DNA of 64,000 bases from a virus: positions 1-64,000 of IMG/VR virus record IMGVR_UViG_3300036801_000102; one strand, given 5' to 3'. Each line of letters begins with the position of its first letter. The stretch's first letter is position 1. A program made the translations under genes and the position numbers. Below the pieces are notes generated by a model. The model was not told where the DNA came from. It ran no database searches and saw only the letters and a list, made by a program, of their open reading frames with translations. This document shows positions 33,365 to 44,702 of this stretch, one piece after another.

Positions 33365-34345
33365 TTAGCAGGGCAGCTTTCTATTTTCCCTGAGCTTGTC
33401 TCGAGTTTGCAGACGCACGATCGCTGCGCTTGCCAGGCGCTCCTGGTCAGCGCCACGGGTGTAGAGCGCCACCATGGCAAGCGTCCGGTGCCCAGTAACT
33501 GCGGCGATCTCGTGCGGTGTGCAGCCGGCGTCAGCCAAGCTTGTGGCTGCCAGCTTCCGTAGTCCATGGACGTTGAGACCGGCCGGCATCTCGAGACGAG
33601 CGAGCGCAACGGGCAGCTCGTGGCTCAGGTGCACGGGCCGCCATGGTCGGCCAAGCGTGTTGGTCAGGATGCTGACTGAGGTTGCCTCTTCCCGCCACCG
33701 GGCCAGTTCAGCTCGCAGGGCCGGATGACAGGGGATGACCAGCTCCTCGCCGGTCTTCTGTTGCTTGACACGGATGCTCTCGCCGTCGAATGCCGACCAG
33801 GTCATGGCGCACAGATCCCCGCGGCGCTGCCCGGTGTAGCGCGCCAGAACAACCACACGGCGTAGGTGCTCCGGCAGCTCGGCCTGCGCTTTGTCTGCTT
33901 CCTGTGCGCTCCAGGCCCGGAGGTGACCGCCGCTGAGCGCCTTGATTCGGTTGGCTGGACTGTAGTCGATCCACTCTCGGTCAACGGCCCAGCTCAGCAA
34001 CGCCGAAACCGACCGGATGAATCCCTGGGCAGCGCCCCGGCCGCGCGACTGCATAATGGCGTCGCGGGCAATCAAGAGATCACGCCGGCGCACCTCGGCG
34101 ACACGAATGTGTCCAACCTTCTCGATCTCGCGAAGGTAAGTGGCATATGTTCTGCGGCTGTTCTCGGCCAGCGTGTGCCACTCGGGGCTACGTCGATATG
34201 CCTCGATCAGTGCGTCGATGGTGTCGGCCGGTCTCTCGCGACGCTTGGGTTTGTGAGGAGCATAGCGGTACTCCTTGACAGTGCCGTCAGCGAGTGTGTG
34301 TCGAACGACGCGCTGTGCTCGGCGCCCCTTTGGCCGCGATCTCAT
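33365..34345 (-). CDS. int: Tyrosine integrase
   Basis: 326 residues. A core-binding SAM-like domain (about 40-130) is followed by a catalytic domain with Arg174 in 'GQRRGD', Lys197 in 'QKTG', His260/Arg263 in 'HGLRK', His286 in 'GHRT' and the nucleophile Tyr295 in 'VALYTRG'. All catalytic positions of the family are present. It catalyses site-specific integration and excision. The start overlaps the excisionase-like gene by 59 bases. Confidence 0.9.
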   Translation of the reverse strand: MRSRPKGRRAQRVVRHTLADGTVKEYRYAPHKPKRRERPADTIDALIEAYRRSPEWHTLAENSRRTYATYLREIEKVGHIRVAEVRRRDLLIARDAIMQSRGRGAAQGFIRSVSALLSWAVDREWIDYSPANRIKALSGGHLRAWSAQEADKAQAELPEHLRRVVVLARYTGQRRGDLCAMTWSAFDGESIRVKQQKTGEELVIPCHPALRAELARWREEATSVSILTNTLGRPWRPVHLSHELPVALARLEMPAGLNVHGLRKLAATSLADAGCTPHEIAAVTGHRTLAMVALYTRGADQERLASAAIVRLQTRDKLRENRKLPC

Positions 34346-34987: not shown

Positions 34988-35440
34988 CTAGAATGGGATA
35001 ACATCATCTAGATCATCAGCCGCAGCCTTAGTTCTTTTTGATGCTGGCGTAGCAACACCAGGCGCCTTGATGTAATCCTGAATGATGTTCTTGGCTGCGT
35101 ATTCCTGTGTCGCCTTCTGCGTTGTGATCTTGCACAACCCAGTGCGGCCGATCATCTCATTGCTAATCAGGGTGCCCGTCTGATATTGCGGCAGCAGGCC
35201 GCACGAGGCAGCAAATCGGTGGACCTTCCATGCGGCTTTGTCAGTATTCACGAGGTAATCAAACACTAAGCGTCGGTTGCCAGTTTTGTCGAAAATCCAC
35301 ACCTCCAGCTCAGCCATATCGTTGCCTTGGCTGCTCTCCTTCTCAGTCGCATTGCGCACTTCGAAGTCGTAGGTCCCATCTGGCCATAGGTCGAGGGATC
35401 TGGCATTGGCTTCTTCTTCAGAAATGGGTATGAACCTCAG
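34988..35440 (-). CDS. DUF669-like recombination accessory protein with CTG start
   Basis: 150 residues if started at CTG 35440. The conserved N-terminal part typical of DUF669 ('RFIPISEEEA', 'WPDGTYDFEV', 'EKESSQGNDMAELEV', 'VFDYLV') is only included with this start. The first ATG/GTG-type start (GTG 35359) would cut it off. The CTG overlaps the TGA of the Sak4-like gene (CTGA), and AAGGA lies seven bases upstream. DUF669 proteins accompany phage single-strand annealing and RecA-like genes and may bind ssDNA. The acidic C-terminus 'DDLDDVIPF' resembles SSB tails. Confidence 0.7.
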   Translation of the reverse strand: MRFIPISEEEANARSLDLWPDGTYDFEVRNATEKESSQGNDMAELEVWIFDKTGNRRLVFDYLVNTDKAAWKVHRFAASCGLLPQYQTGTLISNEMIGRTGLCKITTQKATQEYAAKNIIQDYIKAPGVATPASKRTKAAADDLDDVIPF

Positions 35441-36351
35441 GACACGATCCTTTCTTGCATTTGCTTGATCATCGCTGCGACATGTTCAGTATGCATGTCC
35501 TCTATCTGTTCTGATTTGCCCTTCTTGAGACATGAGTCCAGCCATCCGTCTGGCATTTTTATACGTTCGTAAAGTTTGCTGAACTCAGTGAGTTGCTCCT
35601 CAGTAGCAGCGTCAAATACCTTTGCATCGCTTTCCATGATAGCTCGCCCATATCGATTAGCGAATTCCTCGTACGACCATGGGAAGGTTTCATTTTCAGG
35701 AAATCCCTTGAGACGTGTTTTTTTGATCCTAGCTAAGCGTTCCGGACCTGGGGTTGGTTTTGTAATATGCAGAGCAAGATTAAGAATGTACTCCAATTTT
35801 ATCCAACAATCGAATGTCTTCCCGATTGCTTCTCGTTTGCCATTAACAAAGCCGTACTCGTCTCGTTCATGAGCTATGAGAACAACATTCATATCTATTT
35901 TCTCTAGCCAATTCAAAATACGGCGCAGTTTGCGAGTTGCTGGTTTGTTTGATGCTCCGTATTCGTCTCGTTCATGAGCATTGTCCAGGCGTTCTTGCTC
36001 GTAAGAAACTTCGGTCCCAAAGAGATGAGAAACGCTGTCGATTACAAGTGTCTTGTACGGGTGTGGTTCTGCTGCTAGAGCTTGTATTTGCTCTAGCACT
36101 ACGGAAAAGTCATTACTACCTTGCTTTGGTCCAAGATATGCGCCGCCAGAATTGACTAGCTTGTCAATGTAATGCTTCTGATTTGCTCCTGCTTCGGTGT
36201 CAATGTAATAGCATTTTGGGAATTCCAAAGATGTCCAGGTTTTGCCTGCATTTGGACGCCCATATATTAGAATAACTGGTTTGCTGGGCTCTACAGAAGC
36301 AGGCTGAATAGCTTTCAGCCTACTTCGTGGCTTAATTAAACCATCAGGCAT
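35437..36351 (-). CDS. Sak4-like RecA-fold ATPase
   Basis: 304 residues. Walker A is 'GRPNAGKT' (31-38) and Walker B is within 'KTLVIDSVSHL'; the fold is a compact RecA core without the DNA repair domains of host RecA. Phage Sak4 proteins act in single-strand annealing, usually with an SSB partner, and the adjacent DUF669-like gene may be that partner. Lies in the early leftward block under the operator-controlled promoter. Confidence 0.75.
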   Translation of the reverse strand: MPDGLIKPRSRLKAIQPASVEPSKPVILIYGRPNAGKTWTSLEFPKCYYIDTEAGANQKHYIDKLVNSGGAYLGPKQGSNDFSVVLEQIQALAAEPHPYKTLVIDSVSHLFGTEVSYEQERLDNAHERDEYGASNKPATRKLRRILNWLEKIDMNVVLIAHERDEYGFVNGKREAIGKTFDCWIKLEYILNLALHITKPTPGPERLARIKKTRLKGFPENETFPWSYEEFANRYGRAIMESDAKVFDAATEEQLTEFSKLYERIKMPDGWLDSCLKKGKSEQIEDMHTEHVAAMIKQMQERIVS

Positions 36352-37727: not shown

Positions 37728-38561
37728 TTATACTGCGCTCCGTGCCGCTTCGATCATGGAAACTAGTCTGGTGTTTTGTGCGACCCTTGCGGCGGCGTAT
37801 GCGGCGGCCCATGCGACGGCGCTTGCGGCGTCCCATGAGGCGTCCCTCGCGGCGGCATCTGCGGCGGCGTATGCGGCGGCGTATGCGGCGGCCCCTGCGG
37901 CGGCCCGTACGGCGACACGTGCGGCGACCCCTGCGGCGTCTGCGGCGGCCTGTGCGGCGTCTGCGGCGGCCTGTGCGGTGACACGTGCGGCGGCTGCGGT
38001 GGCCCGTGCGGCGGCGTATGCGACGGCGTCTGCGGCGGCCCATGCGGTGACACGTGCGGCGGCTGCGGTGGCCCGTGCGGCGACACGTGCGGCGACCCCT
38101 GCGGCGTCTACGGCGGCCTGTGCGGCCCATGTGGCGGCCCATGTGGCGTCTGCGGCGGTCCCTGCGGTCCGTGCTGCGACGAGCGCCGCGAATCTTTTAG
38201 ATTCGTCACCTGTTTCTAAATACTTCCGCATCACATCTGGCATGTTCCACAAATGCGCTACATCTAGCGCGCACTGGCGAGCGAATTGGCGCAGAACATC
38301 CGTTGCATCGAAACGCCAGAGAATGCGGCGCCTTGTGGAAACAAGCTTGTCGTCTCTCTCGATAATCTCTCCATCACATTCGACGTAACAGAGCGTGGTT
38401 CCTGGAGCGTATTGCAGCGCATCGATTAAGCGGCGCGATCCATGAAAGCCTCGCTCGCAAGGCACAATCGGTGGTTCAATCTCTAGCCACTCGCCATCTG
38501 GCGGAATTGGATCGCCATTGCGTAGTATTTCGCCGACAAAGTGCCACGCTAGAATTGACAT
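37728..38561 (-). CDS. Alanine-rich repeat protein with N-terminal DUF7666-like domain
   Basis: 277 residues from ATG 38561, whose codon overlaps the upstream stop (TAATG). Residues about 1-125 form a folded domain: 'LAWHFVGEILRNGDPIPP', 'PPIVPCERGFHGS', 'ALQYAPGTTLCYVE', 'LWRFDATDVLRQFARQCALDVAHLW' and 'YLETGDESKR'. The rest (about 130-265) is over half Ala in A-A-x-A-A steps, a continuous helix. The order 'folded domain plus Ala helix' occurs in phage and bacterial proteins annotated DUF7666 (from memory). Function unknown. The repetitive DNA gives long arginine-rich shadow frames. Confidence 0.7.
   Translation of the reverse strand: MSILAWHFVGEILRNGDPIPPDGEWLEIEPPIVPCERGFHGSRRLIDALQYAPGTTLCYVECDGEIIERDDKLVSTRRRILWRFDATDVLRQFARQCALDVAHLWNMPDVMRKYLETGDESKRFAALVAARTAGTAADATWAATWAAQAAVDAAGVAARVAARATAAAARVTAWAAADAVAYAAARATAAAARVTAQAAADAAQAAADAAGVAARVAVRAAAGAAAYAAAYAAADAAARDASWDAASAVAWAAAYAAARVAQNTRLVSMIEAARSAV
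37790..38170. repeat. GCG-rich imperfect tandem repeats inside the alanine-rich gene
   Basis: Successive short units built on GCGGCG and TGCGGC run through the C-terminal half of the gene. The longest exact copy is 40 bases (37974-38013 and 38043-38082), with a 69-base (23-codon) period, so repeats preserve frame. Slippage or unequal recombination should change the number of units. Confidence 0.7.
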
Positions 38562-38845
38562 TATCCTGTGCCCCACCATGTCGGGATGAACTTCAGCGCT
38601 GCCTCAAGCCGCTCGCGCGACGAGCGCTGCTCTTCCCATTGGCGCCACTCGATCGTCAGCAGCTCATTGTGCTGCCGTCGCAACTGACGCAGGATAGCCA
38701 GCACACTGGTCCGTCGCTCTATATACTGAGCTTGAGTGCAGGCGCCGTGGTTTCGCAGCCGCCACTCCATCGCCGCACAGTCCTGTGCACGATCCAGAGC
38801 GGCGCCACATTGCGCGAGGCGGAGATGGCGCTGAGAGGCGTTCAG
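38561..38845 (-). CDS. Small helical early protein, start uncertain
   Basis: 94 residues if started at CTG 38845, which overlaps the TGA of the upstream gene (CTGA); otherwise 69 residues from ATG 38770. Sequence between the two starts is helical and amphipathic ('LAQCGAALDRAQDCAAMEW'), favouring the longer form. The rest is charged helix. Its stop overlaps the start of the alanine-rich gene. No family recognised. Confidence 0.45.
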   Translation of the reverse strand: MNASQRHLRLAQCGAALDRAQDCAAMEWRLRNHGACTQAQYIERRTSVLAILRQLRRQHNELLTIEWRQWEEQRSSRERLEAALKFIPTWWGTG

Positions 38846-39250: not shown

Positions 39251-39304
39251 ATATTGGGGGCTATTAGCCCCCGTGTCAATGACAAATCGGGGCGCATTGC
39301 CCCC
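39251..39304 (-). promoter_or_regulatory. Leftward early promoter with two operators
   Basis: Read on the minus strand: TTGACA (39274-39279), a 17-base spacer and CAATAT (39251-39256). The spacer is almost entirely the inverted repeat GGGGGC-TAATA-GCCCCC (39256-39272). A second copy, GGGGGC-AATGC-GCCCCG on the same strand, lies just upstream at 39288-39304. A bound repressor would occlude the promoter directly, as in lambda OL/PL. Confidence 0.7.
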
Positions 39305-39356
39305 GCCGAGAGAATTATCCTGCTGAAAGTGCCTTAGATGGCAGTTACAAAGAGGC

Positions 39357-39749
39357 CTAGGCTTTCTTGTGAGAACGTCCGAGTTTCGTGGGCATCCGAG
39401 ATGTGCTCTCGGGATCGTCCCTGCCATGAATGTGTGAGGAAGGCTCGGGTCCTATCAATTCAGGATGCAGGTGTCCTAGCAATGCTGCCAGTTCTCCATC
39501 TATACCTCGCATACGGCCAAGAAGTATGTAGTCTGGTGTTATCCGTAGTCTGTGACTAATCTCAAGGATGCTAAAGATAGAAGGCGGCCTGCGGCCACTT
39601 TCAATGTCGCGAATAGTGGAGCGATCCACACCCATGCTTCGTGCGAACTCAGCTCTATTAGGCTCAACCAGCTCACGAGCCCAACGAATGCGTCGGCCAA
39701 CTCCCCGCGCGATCTCTGAATAAGCGTCAGGTCGAGGTCGGTTGGCCAT
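39357..39749 (-). CDS. CI-like repressor, XRE family
   Basis: 130 residues from ATG 39749. An XRE helix-turn-helix spans about 18-77 ('IRWARELVEPNRAEFARSMGVDRSTIRDIESGRRPPSIFSILEIS'). The C-terminus is short, with no S24 peptidase motif, so induction by RecA-mediated self-cleavage is not expected. The ATG lies six bases after the candidate -10 TATACC, so the mRNA is probably leaderless, as with lambda PRM-cI. Operators flank it on both sides. Confidence 0.75.
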   Translation of the reverse strand: MANRPRPDAYSEIARGVGRRIRWARELVEPNRAEFARSMGVDRSTIRDIESGRRPPSIFSILEISHRLRITPDYILLGRMRGIDGELAALLGHLHPELIGPEPSSHIHGRDDPESTSRMPTKLGRSHKKA

Positions 39750-39755
39750 GCTCCT

Positions 39756-39784
39756 GGTATAGGGGCGAGAACACCCCTCCTGCG
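39756..39784 (-). promoter_or_regulatory. Repressor maintenance promoter with degenerate operator
   Basis: Minus strand: -10 TATACC (39756-39761) preceded by a 17-base spacer holding AGGGGTG-TTCTC-GCCCC, a weaker match to the 17-base operator. The -35 position (CGCAGG) is poor, as in lambda PRM. The ATG of the repressor follows six bases after the -10, implying a leaderless transcript. Confidence 0.5.
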
Positions 39785-39800
39785 CGGGGCGAATTCCAAC

Positions 39801-39829
39801 TTGACTTGGGGGCGTAGTGCCCCCACCAT
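39801..39829 (+). promoter_or_regulatory. Rightward early promoter with operator
   Basis: TTGACT (39801-39806), a 17-base spacer and CACCAT (39824-39829). The spacer contains the operator GGGGGC-GTAGT-GCCCCC (39808-39824), in the same register as in the leftward promoter. Transcription starting six or seven bases past the -10 would begin at or next to ATG 39837. Confidence 0.6.
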
Positions 39830-39836
39830 GTTGGAT

Positions 39837-40064
39837 ATGGACAACCTGCACGCTGAGGTTATTCGGCAGATCGGAGGCAGAGCCTATCTCGCCGGAGTCC
39901 TTTGTCTCCAGGTTGAGACCGTCAAGAGCTGGCAAAAGCGGGGCATCCCGGCGCGCTACTGGCATCGAGTCATAGAACTTGCTGCTCTCAAGCTCCCCAA
40001 TCTAACTTTTGATGATCTGGATCGCACGAAGCCAACCGCCGTCAGAAACGAGACTGTGGTGTGA
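39837..40064 (+). CDS. Cro-like helix-turn-helix protein
   Basis: 75 residues from ATG 39837; an in-frame ATG at 39828 lies inside the predicted -10. 'HAEVIRQIGGRAYLAGVLCLQVETVKSWQKRGIPARYWHRVIELA' is a YdaS/Cro-type DNA-binding domain. First gene of the rightward early operon, divergent from the repressor and probably translated from a leaderless mRNA, since no ribosome site fits between the operator and the ATG. Confidence 0.7.
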   Translation: MDNLHAEVIRQIGGRAYLAGVLCLQVETVKSWQKRGIPARYWHRVIELAALKLPNLTFDDLDRTKPTAVRNETVV

Positions 40065-40792: not shown

Positions 40793-40871
40793 AAAATGCA
40801 CTGGTACAAACGTCTTTGCCTATGGCTTGTACACCGGCGTGCACTGCGGTACGTGCGAAAGCTGTTGCGCC

Positions 40872-41330
40872 GTGGGTAACGGTCGCCGTGTATGGACCCC
40901 CGAAGGGGATGCACAGCTAACCAAGTTGTGGAATCTGACCGGCTCTGAAAAGTTGTCGTGCGATCAGATTGGCAAACGTCTCGGCAGAACCAAAAGCATG
41001 GTGGTCGGTCGAGCCCATCGTCTCAATCTGCCGAAGCGGCCATCGCCCATCATTTACAAGAATGGCAAGCCACCAGGACCAAAAGCAGCAAGGGTTCATT
41101 CGTCATCGAAGTCCTTGCCACAACTCACCAGTCTCATTGCCGCCGCTCCGCCTCGTCCATCTCCACCTCCACCTCGTCTGTCTAGCGGTCGTGTTATCTC
41201 CTGCTGCTGGCCGATAGGCCAGCCTGGAGCAGACGACTTCCGTTTTTGCGAGATCCCATCAGAGCCTAATGGCGTCTACTGCACAACTCACGCCACCCTA
41301 GCGTACATACGGGCGCACATACGCAAGTGA
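40872..41330 (+). CDS. gcrA: GcrA-family cell-cycle regulator
   Basis: 152 residues from GTG 40872; the frame is open back to a TTG at 40827, which would add a Cys-rich stretch not typical of GcrA. 'WTPEGDAQLTKLWN' and 'LSCDQIGKRLGRTKSMVVGRAHRLNLPKRPSPI' are the conserved GcrA DNA-binding domain. A Pro/Ser linker leads to the C-terminal 'CCWPIGQPG..DFRFCEI...GVYCTTHATLAY', the sigma70-contact domain with its Cys/His pattern. Chromosomal GcrA activates promoters at GANTC sites methylated by CcrM in alphaproteobacteria. No CcrM-like methyltransferase was found in the window. Confidence 0.85.
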   Translation: MGNGRRVWTPEGDAQLTKLWNLTGSEKLSCDQIGKRLGRTKSMVVGRAHRLNLPKRPSPIIYKNGKPPGPKAARVHSSSKSLPQLTSLIAAAPPRPSPPPPRLSSGRVISCCWPIGQPGADDFRFCEIPSEPNGVYCTTHATLAYIRAHIRK

Positions 41331-41569
41331 GATGCAACATGAAGCGAAGTCACGATGTAAAACGCGACGCCCTTTGCAAAACAATGCGTGCCGAACGCGC
41401 CGCACGAGGGGCAGCAACTGTCATCTATATCCGAAAAGGCATTGCAGTTGAAGCTGCTCCACGCAGCCTACGAGACGCGATCCCACCAGAAGTCCTGCAC
41501 CGAGGGCGCGAACTCAACGAAATGATGCACACGCCCTTTTGCATGTGGCCCAAAGAATGGACAAAGTGA
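41327..41569 (+). CDS. Hypothetical early protein
   Basis: 80 residues from GTG 41327 (overlapping the gcrA stop) or 76 from ATG 41339. Basic N-terminal half, then 'GIAVEAAPRSLRDAIPPEVLHRGRELNEM'. No family recognised. Overlaps the rusA start. Confidence 0.5.
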   Translation: MRCNMKRSHDVKRDALCKTMRAERAARGAATVIYIRKGIAVEAAPRSLRDAIPPEVLHRGRELNEMMHTPFCMWPKEWTK

Positions 41570-42033
41570 CACAACAACCTACTATCGTCCTGCATCTGCC
41601 TATTCCGCCCAGTATCAATAAGCTCTGGGCGAATAGTCCAGGCAAACCGCGAGTTCGTAGCTCAGCATATCGCGCGTGGATCATCGAAGCAGGCTGGGAA
41701 GCGCGAACGCAACTAGTCGGCGTTCCAACTATCGCCGGCACATTCGATGCCCTGATCTCAGTGCCAGTATCATCGCGCCGAGATCGCGACTCATGGTCCA
41801 AATCACTGTTCGATCTATGTCAACACGTCGGTGCGATCCGTAATGATAGCGGATTGCGAAGCTATTCAGTGATTGGTGACGATCGTACCGACTGCATGGT
41901 GGCATTATGGGATACAGGCGGCCCCGAACAACGCGCACCAAAAATATTCCGAATGTCAGCTAAGCCACGATCGAGTCAGCCAACGCTTTCGCAGATCACC
42001 CGCGCAGAAGCCGCTCGCAGGCTGCCGCGATGA
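41557..42033 (+). CDS. rusA: RusA-like Holliday junction resolvase
   Basis: 158 residues from ATG 41557. 'LHLPIPPSINKLWANSPGKPRVRSSAYRAW' is the RusA start. Metal-binding Asp residues are expected at 'RRDRDSWSKSLFDLC' (Asp76, Asp78, Lys82, Asp86) and 'RNDSGL' (Asp97), in the family order. RusA cleaves four-way junctions during phage recombination and replication. Shares four bases with the next gene. Confidence 0.75.
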   Translation: MDKVTQQPTIVLHLPIPPSINKLWANSPGKPRVRSSAYRAWIIEAGWEARTQLVGVPTIAGTFDALISVPVSSRRDRDSWSKSLFDLCQHVGAIRNDSGLRSYSVIGDDRTDCMVALWDTGGPEQRAPKIFRMSAKPRSSQPTLSQITRAEAARRLPR

Positions 42034-42677
42034 GCAGCACCGAATTGATTCGCTATGACACGATGTGTCGGGCCGTTGTTGCACTGGATGCGCAGCAACA
42101 TCATTGCTTTCAGTACCCTGAATCTCCCGGCGTCTATGTCTTCGATCGATTGGGCACGACGCTCTATGTTGGAGAAAGCAAAAACCTTCGACACCGGCTC
42201 ACACATCACCCTCGTGGTTATCTTCGCCGCTCTGTTGCGGTGCGGTGCCGCATCTTGCCGTGCCTTAACCACAAGCAGGTCGAGAAATGGCTAATTGAAG
42301 CCCTCCGGCCCACTATGAACGGTGTGTCAGAGGAGAAGCGGAAGCGACTGCTGCACAGGCCCGCCAAGAGCCAGGCTCAGATAGACGACGAAATTGGTTC
42401 AATATGGCGCGATCTGTTTGGTGAACGTACTGATCCAAACGACCAAATAGCAGCAAGCGTTGCCGGAGAAGACAATCTGTTCCCTGAAACTCTGCAAGAG
42501 CGTTACCCGCGACAACCAAAGCGAGACGATGCCGAGCGGGTCTATGCATTGCGTGACGCGCTGACAGAAGATGACGTTCAGCACAACATCCTTCGCATGC
42601 GTCAGGGAGGCAGGGCGCTACTGAAGCACGCAGATGCTCTTGACGCGTGGAATCGCAATCGACACACGGCGGCGTAA
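42030..42677 (+). CDS. GIY-YIG nuclease domain protein
   Basis: 215 residues. 'GVYVF' (34-38) and 'LYVGESKNLRHRLTHH' (45-60), with Arg54 and the later Glu in 'VEKWLIEALRPTMN' (about 84-97), are the GIY-YIG catalytic core. The C-terminal 90 residues are a charged helical region. The position in the replication block and the four-base overlap with rusA argue for a DNA-processing role rather than a selfish homing element, though both occur in phages. Confidence 0.75.
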   Translation: MSSTELIRYDTMCRAVVALDAQQHHCFQYPESPGVYVFDRLGTTLYVGESKNLRHRLTHHPRGYLRRSVAVRCRILPCLNHKQVEKWLIEALRPTMNGVSEEKRKRLLHRPAKSQAQIDDEIGSIWRDLFGERTDPNDQIAASVAGEDNLFPETLQERYPRQPKRDDAERVYALRDALTEDDVQHNILRMRQGGRALLKHADALDAWNRNRHTAA

Positions 42678-42682
42678 ATGTA

Positions 42683-42904
42683 ATGAGCTATTCAGCAGTT
42701 CGAATATCGCCTGACGGATGCATTAGCCATTATACCTCAGACGAATGGGCACTCGCCGCAGTGTGGCTGCGTTCAATGATGCTATTCGACACTCGCTCCG
42801 TGGCAAAGCTGCTGCCAGATTGCGAATGTACCATCACTGTCCGTGGCCATTGGTACTCGATCAAAGCTGAATCCGCGTCCTGCGTAGCGGCAAGGAGCGA
42901 GTAA
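42683..42904 (+). CDS. Hypothetical early protein
   Basis: 73 residues from ATG 42683. 'SYSAVRISPDGCISHYTSDEWALAAVWLRSMMLF' followed by beta strands 'CECTITVRGHWYSIKAES'. No family recognised and no clear ribosome site. Confidence 0.45.
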   Translation: MSYSAVRISPDGCISHYTSDEWALAAVWLRSMMLFDTRSVAKLLPDCECTITVRGHWYSIKAESASCVAARSE

Positions 42905-42927
42905 TGCTCCGCGACGATGCATAGGAG

Positions 42928-43194
42928 ATGCAGTCCACAGTCGCATTCGTGTCCTCAGTGCGCGCTCGCCTATGGGGCGCAGGCTACCGACCAGTTCAGG
43001 TCTCAACTGACGCCCTGACGCCGTCCGCCGCTTCCCTGATCGCCAAGGCACTCAACGCCGGTAGGCCCGCCGGCAGGCCCGCCGGGAGGCTCCACAGGGA
43101 GGCCGGCGTCACCTGGGGAGAGATCATCGTCCCGGCGCTCCCGCCGCCCGTACGGCCTCTACAGCCCCGGCACGGGCCATCCCCATGGCCCTAA
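42928..43194 (+). CDS. Small protein upstream of helicase, possible primase-like remnant
   Basis: 88 residues from ATG 42928, overlapping the helicase start by ten bases. 'VRARLWGAGYRPVQV' resembles the first strand of phage primase-polymerase domains, but the catalytic part is absent. 'RPAGRPAGR' reflects a short direct repeat in the DNA. It may be a truncated domain or an unrelated small protein. Confidence 0.4.
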   Translation: MQSTVAFVSSVRARLWGAGYRPVQVSTDALTPSAASLIAKALNAGRPAGRPAGRLHREAGVTWGEIIVPALPPPVRPLQPRHGPSPWP

Positions 43195-44702
43195 CGTCAG
43201 ACCAGAGCGCAGGACGGCGAGGCAGCAACGGCGCCTGGCACAACCCGTTCGAAGACGAGCAGGTCAGGGCCACGTGGGATGCGGTCCACAAAGCGCGCCC
43301 CGAAGTCATCAGCCACGTGAACGGCACAGAAGCGTCCGACGTACTCGACATCCCGCTCGCGGAAGTGGTCGACGCCTTCTACACCACAGCGGCCAAGATC
43401 CCGACCGCGCTGATCCCCCCGCAGCTCGCTGCCATGCTCGGACACTTCGAGCGCGGCGCATTCGCTGGCCGCGCAGGATCTAAACAGTTCCTCGAAGACG
43501 TCACCACGCTATGGGCCGAATGCCGCGACAAAGCGACAGCCGAGGCTCGCGAGCGCCAGCAAGAAGCTAAGTATCGCGAGGCGCTGCTGAGCCGGACATC
43601 GGTCACCGCGCTGCTGAGCCGAGAGTTTCCGCCCGAAGTCGAGTTCCTCGGCTCGCTGGTAACACCCACCACCCGCACGTTCCTCGTCGGCCCAACTGGC
43701 GCCGGTAAGACCATGGTCGCAATGGCAATGGCCGGCGGCATAGCGTCAGGGTTGGGCCTCCTCGGCTGGAGAACCCAAAGACCCGGTCGCGTCCTGTGGT
43801 TCGACGGCGAAATGCCGCTAGTCGTCATGCAACAACGGTTCAGGGAACTCGCCAGGAGCTACGGCTACAACGGCGAGTTTCCGGGCATTCACTTCGTGTC
43901 ATGGCAGGAAGCCGACGGCCTGCTGCCCGACGCGAAATGGGCACCCCTGAACACCGCCGAGGGCCAGGAATTCATCCTAAAGCTCTGCGACCTAATCAAA
44001 CCTGACGTGGTAATGTTCGATAACGTCCAATCCCTGATCGTCGGGGACATGAAAGACGAAGTGCCGTGGAACGATACCATGCCGCTGGTAATGGCGTTGA
44101 CCGCACGGAACATAGGCCAGGTCTGGTGCGACCACACCGGACACGACAGAACCCACCAATATGGCAGCAGCCGGAAGGCGTGGCCGTTCGATATCGTCGC
44201 CATGATCATGCCGCTCACTGCGCCGGAAGGCGAGCTGGCGCTAACTCTGTCATTCGATCCACCAGGCGGTAAGGCGCGCCAACGCACTCCGAGCAACTGG
44301 CGAGAATACGCACCCAAGACCATCCGCCTGCGAGATGGTGAATGGTCCTGGCTGCCAGCCGAACCCGGCGCCGAACAACCAAGCAAAGGTGGCCGGCCAA
44401 TAAAGGACGCCACCGAACTGCTGCGTCGGACAATCTTCACCCTCGCCAGCGCTCCCGAAGTGCGCCCAACCGTCGTCCAAACCGGTATGCCAGCCGTGCA
44501 CGCAATTTGGCTGGGAAACCTCAAACAGACACTTGTCGCCGAAGGATGGTTCACAGAGGACGTTGATTACGTGGCTGGGAAACTATCCAAGGGGTTTCCC
44601 AGCCTTACGAAAGGCGGTCGAAACCGGCTGGCAGAAGCTCTCAAGACATTGAAAAGACAGGGAATATGTGGCTACAACATAGAGCTAGTATGGCCAGCAT
44701 AA
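43185..44702 (+). CDS. RepA-like replicative helicase
   Basis: 505 residues. The N-terminal 150 residues are a charged helical domain. The AAA_25/RecA core has Walker A 'GPTGAGKT' (169-176), 'LWFDGEMP', Walker B 'VVMFDN' and 'WCDHTGHDRTHQYGSS', as in hexameric RepA helicases. The C-terminus (about 400-505) is a winged-helix-like tail and is crossed by copies of the GGCTGGGAAAC repeat. Together these suggest origin binding and helicase loading in one module. Confidence 0.75.
   Translation: MALTSDQSAGRRGSNGAWHNPFEDEQVRATWDAVHKARPEVISHVNGTEASDVLDIPLAEVVDAFYTTAAKIPTALIPPQLAAMLGHFERGAFAGRAGSKQFLEDVTTLWAECRDKATAEARERQQEAKYREALLSRTSVTALLSREFPPEVEFLGSLVTPTTRTFLVGPTGAGKTMVAMAMAGGIASGLGLLGWRTQRPGRVLWFDGEMPLVVMQQRFRELARSYGYNGEFPGIHFVSWQEADGLLPDAKWAPLNTAEGQEFILKLCDLIKPDVVMFDNVQSLIVGDMKDEVPWNDTMPLVMALTARNIGQVWCDHTGHDRTHQYGSSRKAWPFDIVAMIMPLTAPEGELALTLSFDPPGGKARQRTPSNWREYAPKTIRLRDGEWSWLPAEPGAEQPSKGGRPIKDATELLRRTIFTLASAPEVRPTVVQTGMPAVHAIWLGNLKQTLVAEGWFTEDVDYVAGKLSKGFPSLTKGGRNRLAEALKTLKRQGICGYNIELVWPA

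Follow-up and report, generated by a model that had tools for sequence, protein, structure and literature searches.

In lambda-like switches, repressor and Cro share operators; in lambda itself these operators overlap the promoter hexamers, and an S24 domain is required for RecA-driven self-cleavage. A different organization is known from Cluster A mycobacteriophages, in which up to about 30 stoperators of 13 bp occur genome-wide, and repressor and site motif diverge together, giving distinct immune specificities (PMC6550527). The window analyzed here, a 64-kb stretch of a 64,210-bp IMG/VR phage record, contains a locus that is very probably the immunity region of a temperate phage, in which a dimer of a 130-aa repressor would act on shared 17-bp operators as part of a lambda-like CI/Cro switch. 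Judged from its sequence, the locus can be assigned to a new immunity family that joins lambda-like CI/Cro switch logic to operators filling the promoter spacer. Such a spacer-filling layout was not found in a limited literature search covering mainly abstracts and hit lists.

The locus resembles lambda, 434 and P22 (c2) in that the repressor gene lies between divergent early operons and a Cro-like gene comes first in the rightward one. As in lambdoid switches, common palindromic operators are present at the leftward (PL), rightward (PR) and repressor (PRM) promoters, recombination and integration genes lie leftward and replication genes rightward, and the predicted HTH fold is like that of P22 c2. 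Unlike lambdoid switches, the window has a short repressor lacking the S24 domain of CI, one operator rather than a triplet at PR, and a PL placed directly behind the repressor gene; its operators fill the spacer, whereas those of lambda overlap the hexamers. With Cluster A the locus shares the joint divergence of repressor and site, but its four sites are symmetric, 17 bp long and gathered in one locus.

The flanking genes support the lambda-like logic proposed in the first-pass annotation. Leftward are a Sak4-like ATPase for ssDNA annealing (35437-36351, minus strand; phrog_124, 1.9e-20; AAA_24) and a tyrosine integrase (33365-34345, minus strand; PF00589, 2.2e-15). Rightward of the Cro-like gene, the early genes at 40827-44702 (plus strand; PF07750, 2.2e-20; AAA_25, 7.7e-14; phrog_34, 3.2e-12) include a GcrA-like cell-cycle regulator on the PR-transcribed side (40827-41330, plus strand, the PF07750 match), a RusA-like protein (41539-42033, plus strand) and an AAA ATPase (43185-44702, plus strand), and the terminase is also on this side. 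The host is probably an alphaproteobacterium, as suggested by the GcrA-like gene and by the distant relatives in Bradyrhizobium described below. A Bacteroidetes MAG was considered as a host link and rejected, as it offered a single 20-residue repressor match and the 2 kb examined in it contained no operator pairs. The leftward side also encodes a DUF7666 protein (37728-38579, minus strand; 6.3e-11) with a long alanine-rich, low-complexity tail.

The predicted PL (39251-39279, minus strand) consists of a -35 box TTGACA (39274-39279), a 17-nt spacer and a -10 box CAATAT (39251-39256), in a register shared with related switches. The predicted PR (39801-39829, plus strand), whose hexamers were aligned to the operator over 17 switches, has TTGACT (39801-39806), a spacer of 17 and a poor -10 box, CACCAT (39824-39829). 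Operator OL1 (39256-39272, GGGGGCTATTAGCCCCC) in PL and operator OR (39808-39824, GGGGGCGTAGTGCCCCC) in PR each fill the 17-bp spacer in identical register. The -10 box of PRM, TATACC (39756-39761, minus strand), abuts a degenerate operator, ORM (39761-39777, AGGGGCGAGAACACCCC), again in the register seen in relatives. The first-pass annotation had placed an operator in the spacer of all three promoters, which was borne out for PL and PR; at PRM, the TATACC box and the adjoining degenerate site stood, but we infer the spacer placement of that site, since no -35 box is recognizable there in the window sequence. All three switch promoters were missed by a generic sigma-70 scan, because their -10 boxes stray too far from consensus. 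When hexamers at the operator edges were scored over 17 PR regions, which between them use seven half-sites, a mean of 7.7 matches out of 12 was obtained, compared with 4.3 for random placement; the corresponding values were 7.1 for PL and a weaker 5.8 for PRM.

The palindrome GGGGGC-N5-GCCCC was found with no mismatch on at least one strand at just three positions of the 64 kb (39256, 39288 and 39808), and all three perfect copies lie inside 570 bp. The core GGGGC-N5-GCCCC was likewise observed three times, against a mean of 0.105 and a maximum of 2 in simulated 64-kb sequences (Markov-1). A scoring matrix built from 17 conserved sites gave 22.0 bits for OL1, 18.1 bits for OR and 16.8 bits for the copy at 39288 (operator OL2, 39288-39304, CGGGGCGCATTGCCCCC), which lies 32 bp from OL1, upstream of the PL -35 box. 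ORM, with 2 mismatches in 11 (match at 39762-39777), scored 6.9 bits. Seven positions in the 64 kb exceeded 6 bits, including these four. The proposed consensus, degenerate at the repressor promoter, was thus recovered as three perfect copies and one with two mismatches.

An IMG/VR search with the repressor first yielded L001, which has matching sites at all three promoters, and searches with repressor and Cro alignments added further relatives. Altogether, seven related IMG/VR switches, with repressors approximately 39-52% identical, share the GC-rich palindrome and its positions, forming with the window a GC-rich group of eight distinct switches (the window, L001, L036, L037, L038, L041, L045 and L046). 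This comparison, which the first-pass annotation had asked for, revealed common sites at the same places in all seven: the palindrome is present at PL, beside the PRM -10 box and at PR in 8 of 8 switches, with OL1 kept throughout. The PR copy scores poorly in L041, L045 and L046 (4.6-8.8 bits), and in L037 it is degenerate. Seven of the eight, L037 being the exception, also have a second PL site, which lies upstream of the leftward operator at a distance of 32-34 bp and is poor in L001; the copy at 39288 therefore exists as annotated but is not the spare that it was called, because it is kept in relatives. In each of the group's ten records, perfect GGGGC-N5-GCCCC occurs only inside the switch, and a reversed control pattern does not occur at all. 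No isolate phage of this operator group was found in the phage collection searched.

The same operator thus marks the leftward, rightward and repressor promoters, the PRM copy being degenerate in the window and, unlike there, strong in most relatives. Graded affinity would follow from motif scores only: these do differ within the window (6.9 bits at ORM vs 16.8-22.0 bits at OL1, OL2 and OR), but the order of site strength is not kept, since L037, L041, L045 and L046 combine a strong PRM site with a weak PR site. As the order varies, grading of affinity, which these motif scores would imply, should be read for each phage and not as a rule.

The repressor gene (39357-39749, minus strand) encodes an XRE/HTH_3 protein of 130 aa (Pfam HTH_3, 3.3e-10; 40.3 bits against a Pfam cut-off of 23), and only HTH families matched it. 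The AlphaFold2 model (mean pLDDT 81.7, above 90 over residues 11-90) predicts a confident five-helix HTH fold like those of P22 c2 and 434, a sixth helix at residues 85-94 and a low-confidence tail predicted to be disordered. Its best PDB matches include ImmR, C.AhdI and P22 c2; ImmR was best for the DNA-binding domain (Z 10.3, rmsd 1.5, 65 residues), and P22 c2 matched over 66 residues (Z 9.2, rmsd 1.7). Like ImmR of ICEBs1 and the arbitrium phage repressors (7t8i, 9iaq, 9sf2), the protein is a short HTH_3 repressor with no peptidase domain, as the first-pass annotation had recognized; it is set apart in this comparison by the predicted disorder of its C-terminal tail. Peptidase_S24 (PF00717) was absent from the whole window record and from all nine records searched, and, unlike in the ImmR/ImmA system, no Peptidase_M78 gene (PF06114, ImmA-type) was found in the window record and eight related records, giving no sign of lambda-type self-cleavage or of an ImmA-type protease. 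A scan for SOS boxes (GTTC-N7-GTTC) returned one site, at chance level and far from the switch. Following the HTH, the stretch G(V/I)DxELAAxLxxxHPEL (residues 82-98) is conserved in both the GC-rich and the GATGGC groups and is possibly a dimerization or antirepressor surface.

The Cro-like protein (39837-40064, plus strand, about 75 aa) matched phrog_8008 (4.8e-9) and gave weak matches to solved Cro proteins and to YdaS_toxin (PF15943, 18.8 bits against a cut-off of 30). Its start, ATG 39837, was picked from the alignment of relatives; another in-frame ATG lies upstream at 39828. Because ATG 39837 coincides with the predicted PR start point, the cro message is probably leaderless.

In relatives without the GC-rich word, 6-N5-6 palindromes were sought with no preset motif. 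The half-site is GATGGC in L034/L035. More distant relatives, two Bradyrhizobium prophages among them, have other half-sites in an unchanged layout: GTTGCC in L056, L059 and L071-L073, ATTCAC in Bradyrhizobium phage ppBeUSDA76-1 and TTACAC in ppBdUSDA122-1; in addition, L079 has a TTCATG pair and L047 one AATGCC site. Both Bradyrhizobium phages resemble the window in the order of repressor, divergent small gene and leftward operon with integrase, and in the placement of 6-N5-6 palindromes, which lie in the gap separating the divergent genes and also behind the repressor (there as a pair 32 bp apart in ppBeUSDA76-1); they differ in their half-sites, and their repressors share about 28% identity with the one from L036, which belongs to the window's group.

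In the tree, the sister of the window's repressor is that of L035 (support 90/92), which is also the nearest to it when the recognition helix is set aside (65% identity). The recognition helix is STIRDIES in the window and TTLQKIED in L035, and the L035 operators read GATGGC-N5-GCCATC. Two loci, L087 and L083, were examined after this pattern had been noted. L087 repeated the L035 pattern, with helix TTLHKIED and GATGGC sites; its PL site pair is 44 bp apart, as in L035, and PL sites of the GATGGC group do not cleanly fill a spacer. In L083, whose repressor retains arginine, the PL spacer contains a GGGCGC-type site, but the L083 sites are only partly clear and it was left out of the counts. 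The recognition helix of Cro differs as well, being ETVKSW in all eight GC-rich switches and NSITRW with GATGGC sites. Two GATGGC repressor lineages carry the joint change, so the link between repressor residue 47 and the half-site amounts to a pattern and falls short of proof. Since helix and half-site change together, the phage's own regulators are indicated as binders: the data argue for the repressor as the predicted operator binder and suggest that Cro is probably a further one. Control of all three promoters by a single repressor, as originally proposed, is supported by this joint change, the kept sites and the restriction of perfect copies to the switch.

The change in the Cro helix would also fit a switch whose palindromes are occupied chiefly by the divergent Cro-like protein, with the repressor relying on other contacts or other sites. 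We consider this unlikely, as the repressor helix changes with the half-site in the same way and autoregulation usually sits at the site beside the repressor promoter; moreover, both proteins share operators in lambda-like switches, so that binding by Cro is more a complement than a rival. A host transcription factor whose site is exploited by phage promoters is a very unlikely source of the palindrome. It could account for TTGACNN-GGGGGC-N5-GCCCC in unrelated phage contigs, often followed directly by a TATA-like -10 box; in ten of these records no HTH_3 repressor above the cut-off was found. However, perfect sites in the window's group occur only at the repressor locus, the operator word in L035 and L087 shifts together with the phage's own regulators, and the other records bearing the palindrome are fragments or unrelated phages.

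That the inverted repeats form RNA hairpins (terminators or attenuators) and are not operators appears least probable, almost negligibly so. A terminator scan did list OL2 as read on the minus strand, where a T-containing stretch comes next, but this stretch is not retained in L038 or L046. Transcripts from the predicted PL and PR start points would not include OL1 and OR, which are located further upstream, and a DNA-binding helix changes along with the half-sites.

Under the preferred reading, that of an operator-binding repressor, an XRE repressor dimer would bind the 17-bp 6-N5-6 palindromes (GGGGGC-N5-GCCCCC). Because the palindrome fills the spacer of PL and PR, the bound dimer should directly block RNA polymerase. 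OL2, at 32 bp or approximately three helical turns from OL1, would be on the same face of the DNA and probably aids PL occupancy, perhaps through cooperativity. The weak ORM would allow the repressor to be made until it is abundant and then to regulate itself at PRM, and the divergent Cro-like protein would probably compete for the same sites and oppose the repressor.

A wider reading, which we put forward tentatively and regard as somewhat doubtful, is that of a large phage superfamily with operators filling the 17-bp promoter spacer, in which immunity groups diversify around a fixed switch. RNA polymerase reads the hexamers and hardly the spacer, and repressor specificity could therefore change without harm to the promoter. 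If this is true, half-sites such as GGGGGC, GATGGC, GTTGCC, ATTCAC, TTACAC and others would be free to diversify around one switch. Independently of this wider reading, the switch provides a testable immunity code for a group of uncultivated phages that had no close isolate relative among the phages of the collection searched, with one layout retained as operator word and repressor recognition helix change in step. Natural repressor/operator pairs such as those of the window and L035 also resemble ready-made orthogonal repressor systems and could allow superinfection immunity to be predicted from sequence.

Across IMG/VR, TTGACNN-GGGGGC-N5-GCCCC occurs in 31 stretches. They were rejected as members of this switch family and treated as separate systems, because none of them encodes a window-type repressor. 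In the 27-kb contig IMGVR_UViG_3300042475_002819 (L009, L011 and L027; also L010 and L016), no HTH_3 regulator was found. It carries four promoters of the form TTGACNN-GGGGGC-N5-GCCCC followed by a TATA-like box, each then followed by a GC-rich hairpin sequence just upstream of a possible start codon. Another seven stretches (L004, L005, L012, L013, L021, L024 and L025) have in common the promoter TTGACAAGGGGGCATAATGCCCCCTATACTTTCC, or one close to it, in which the palindrome fills the spacer.
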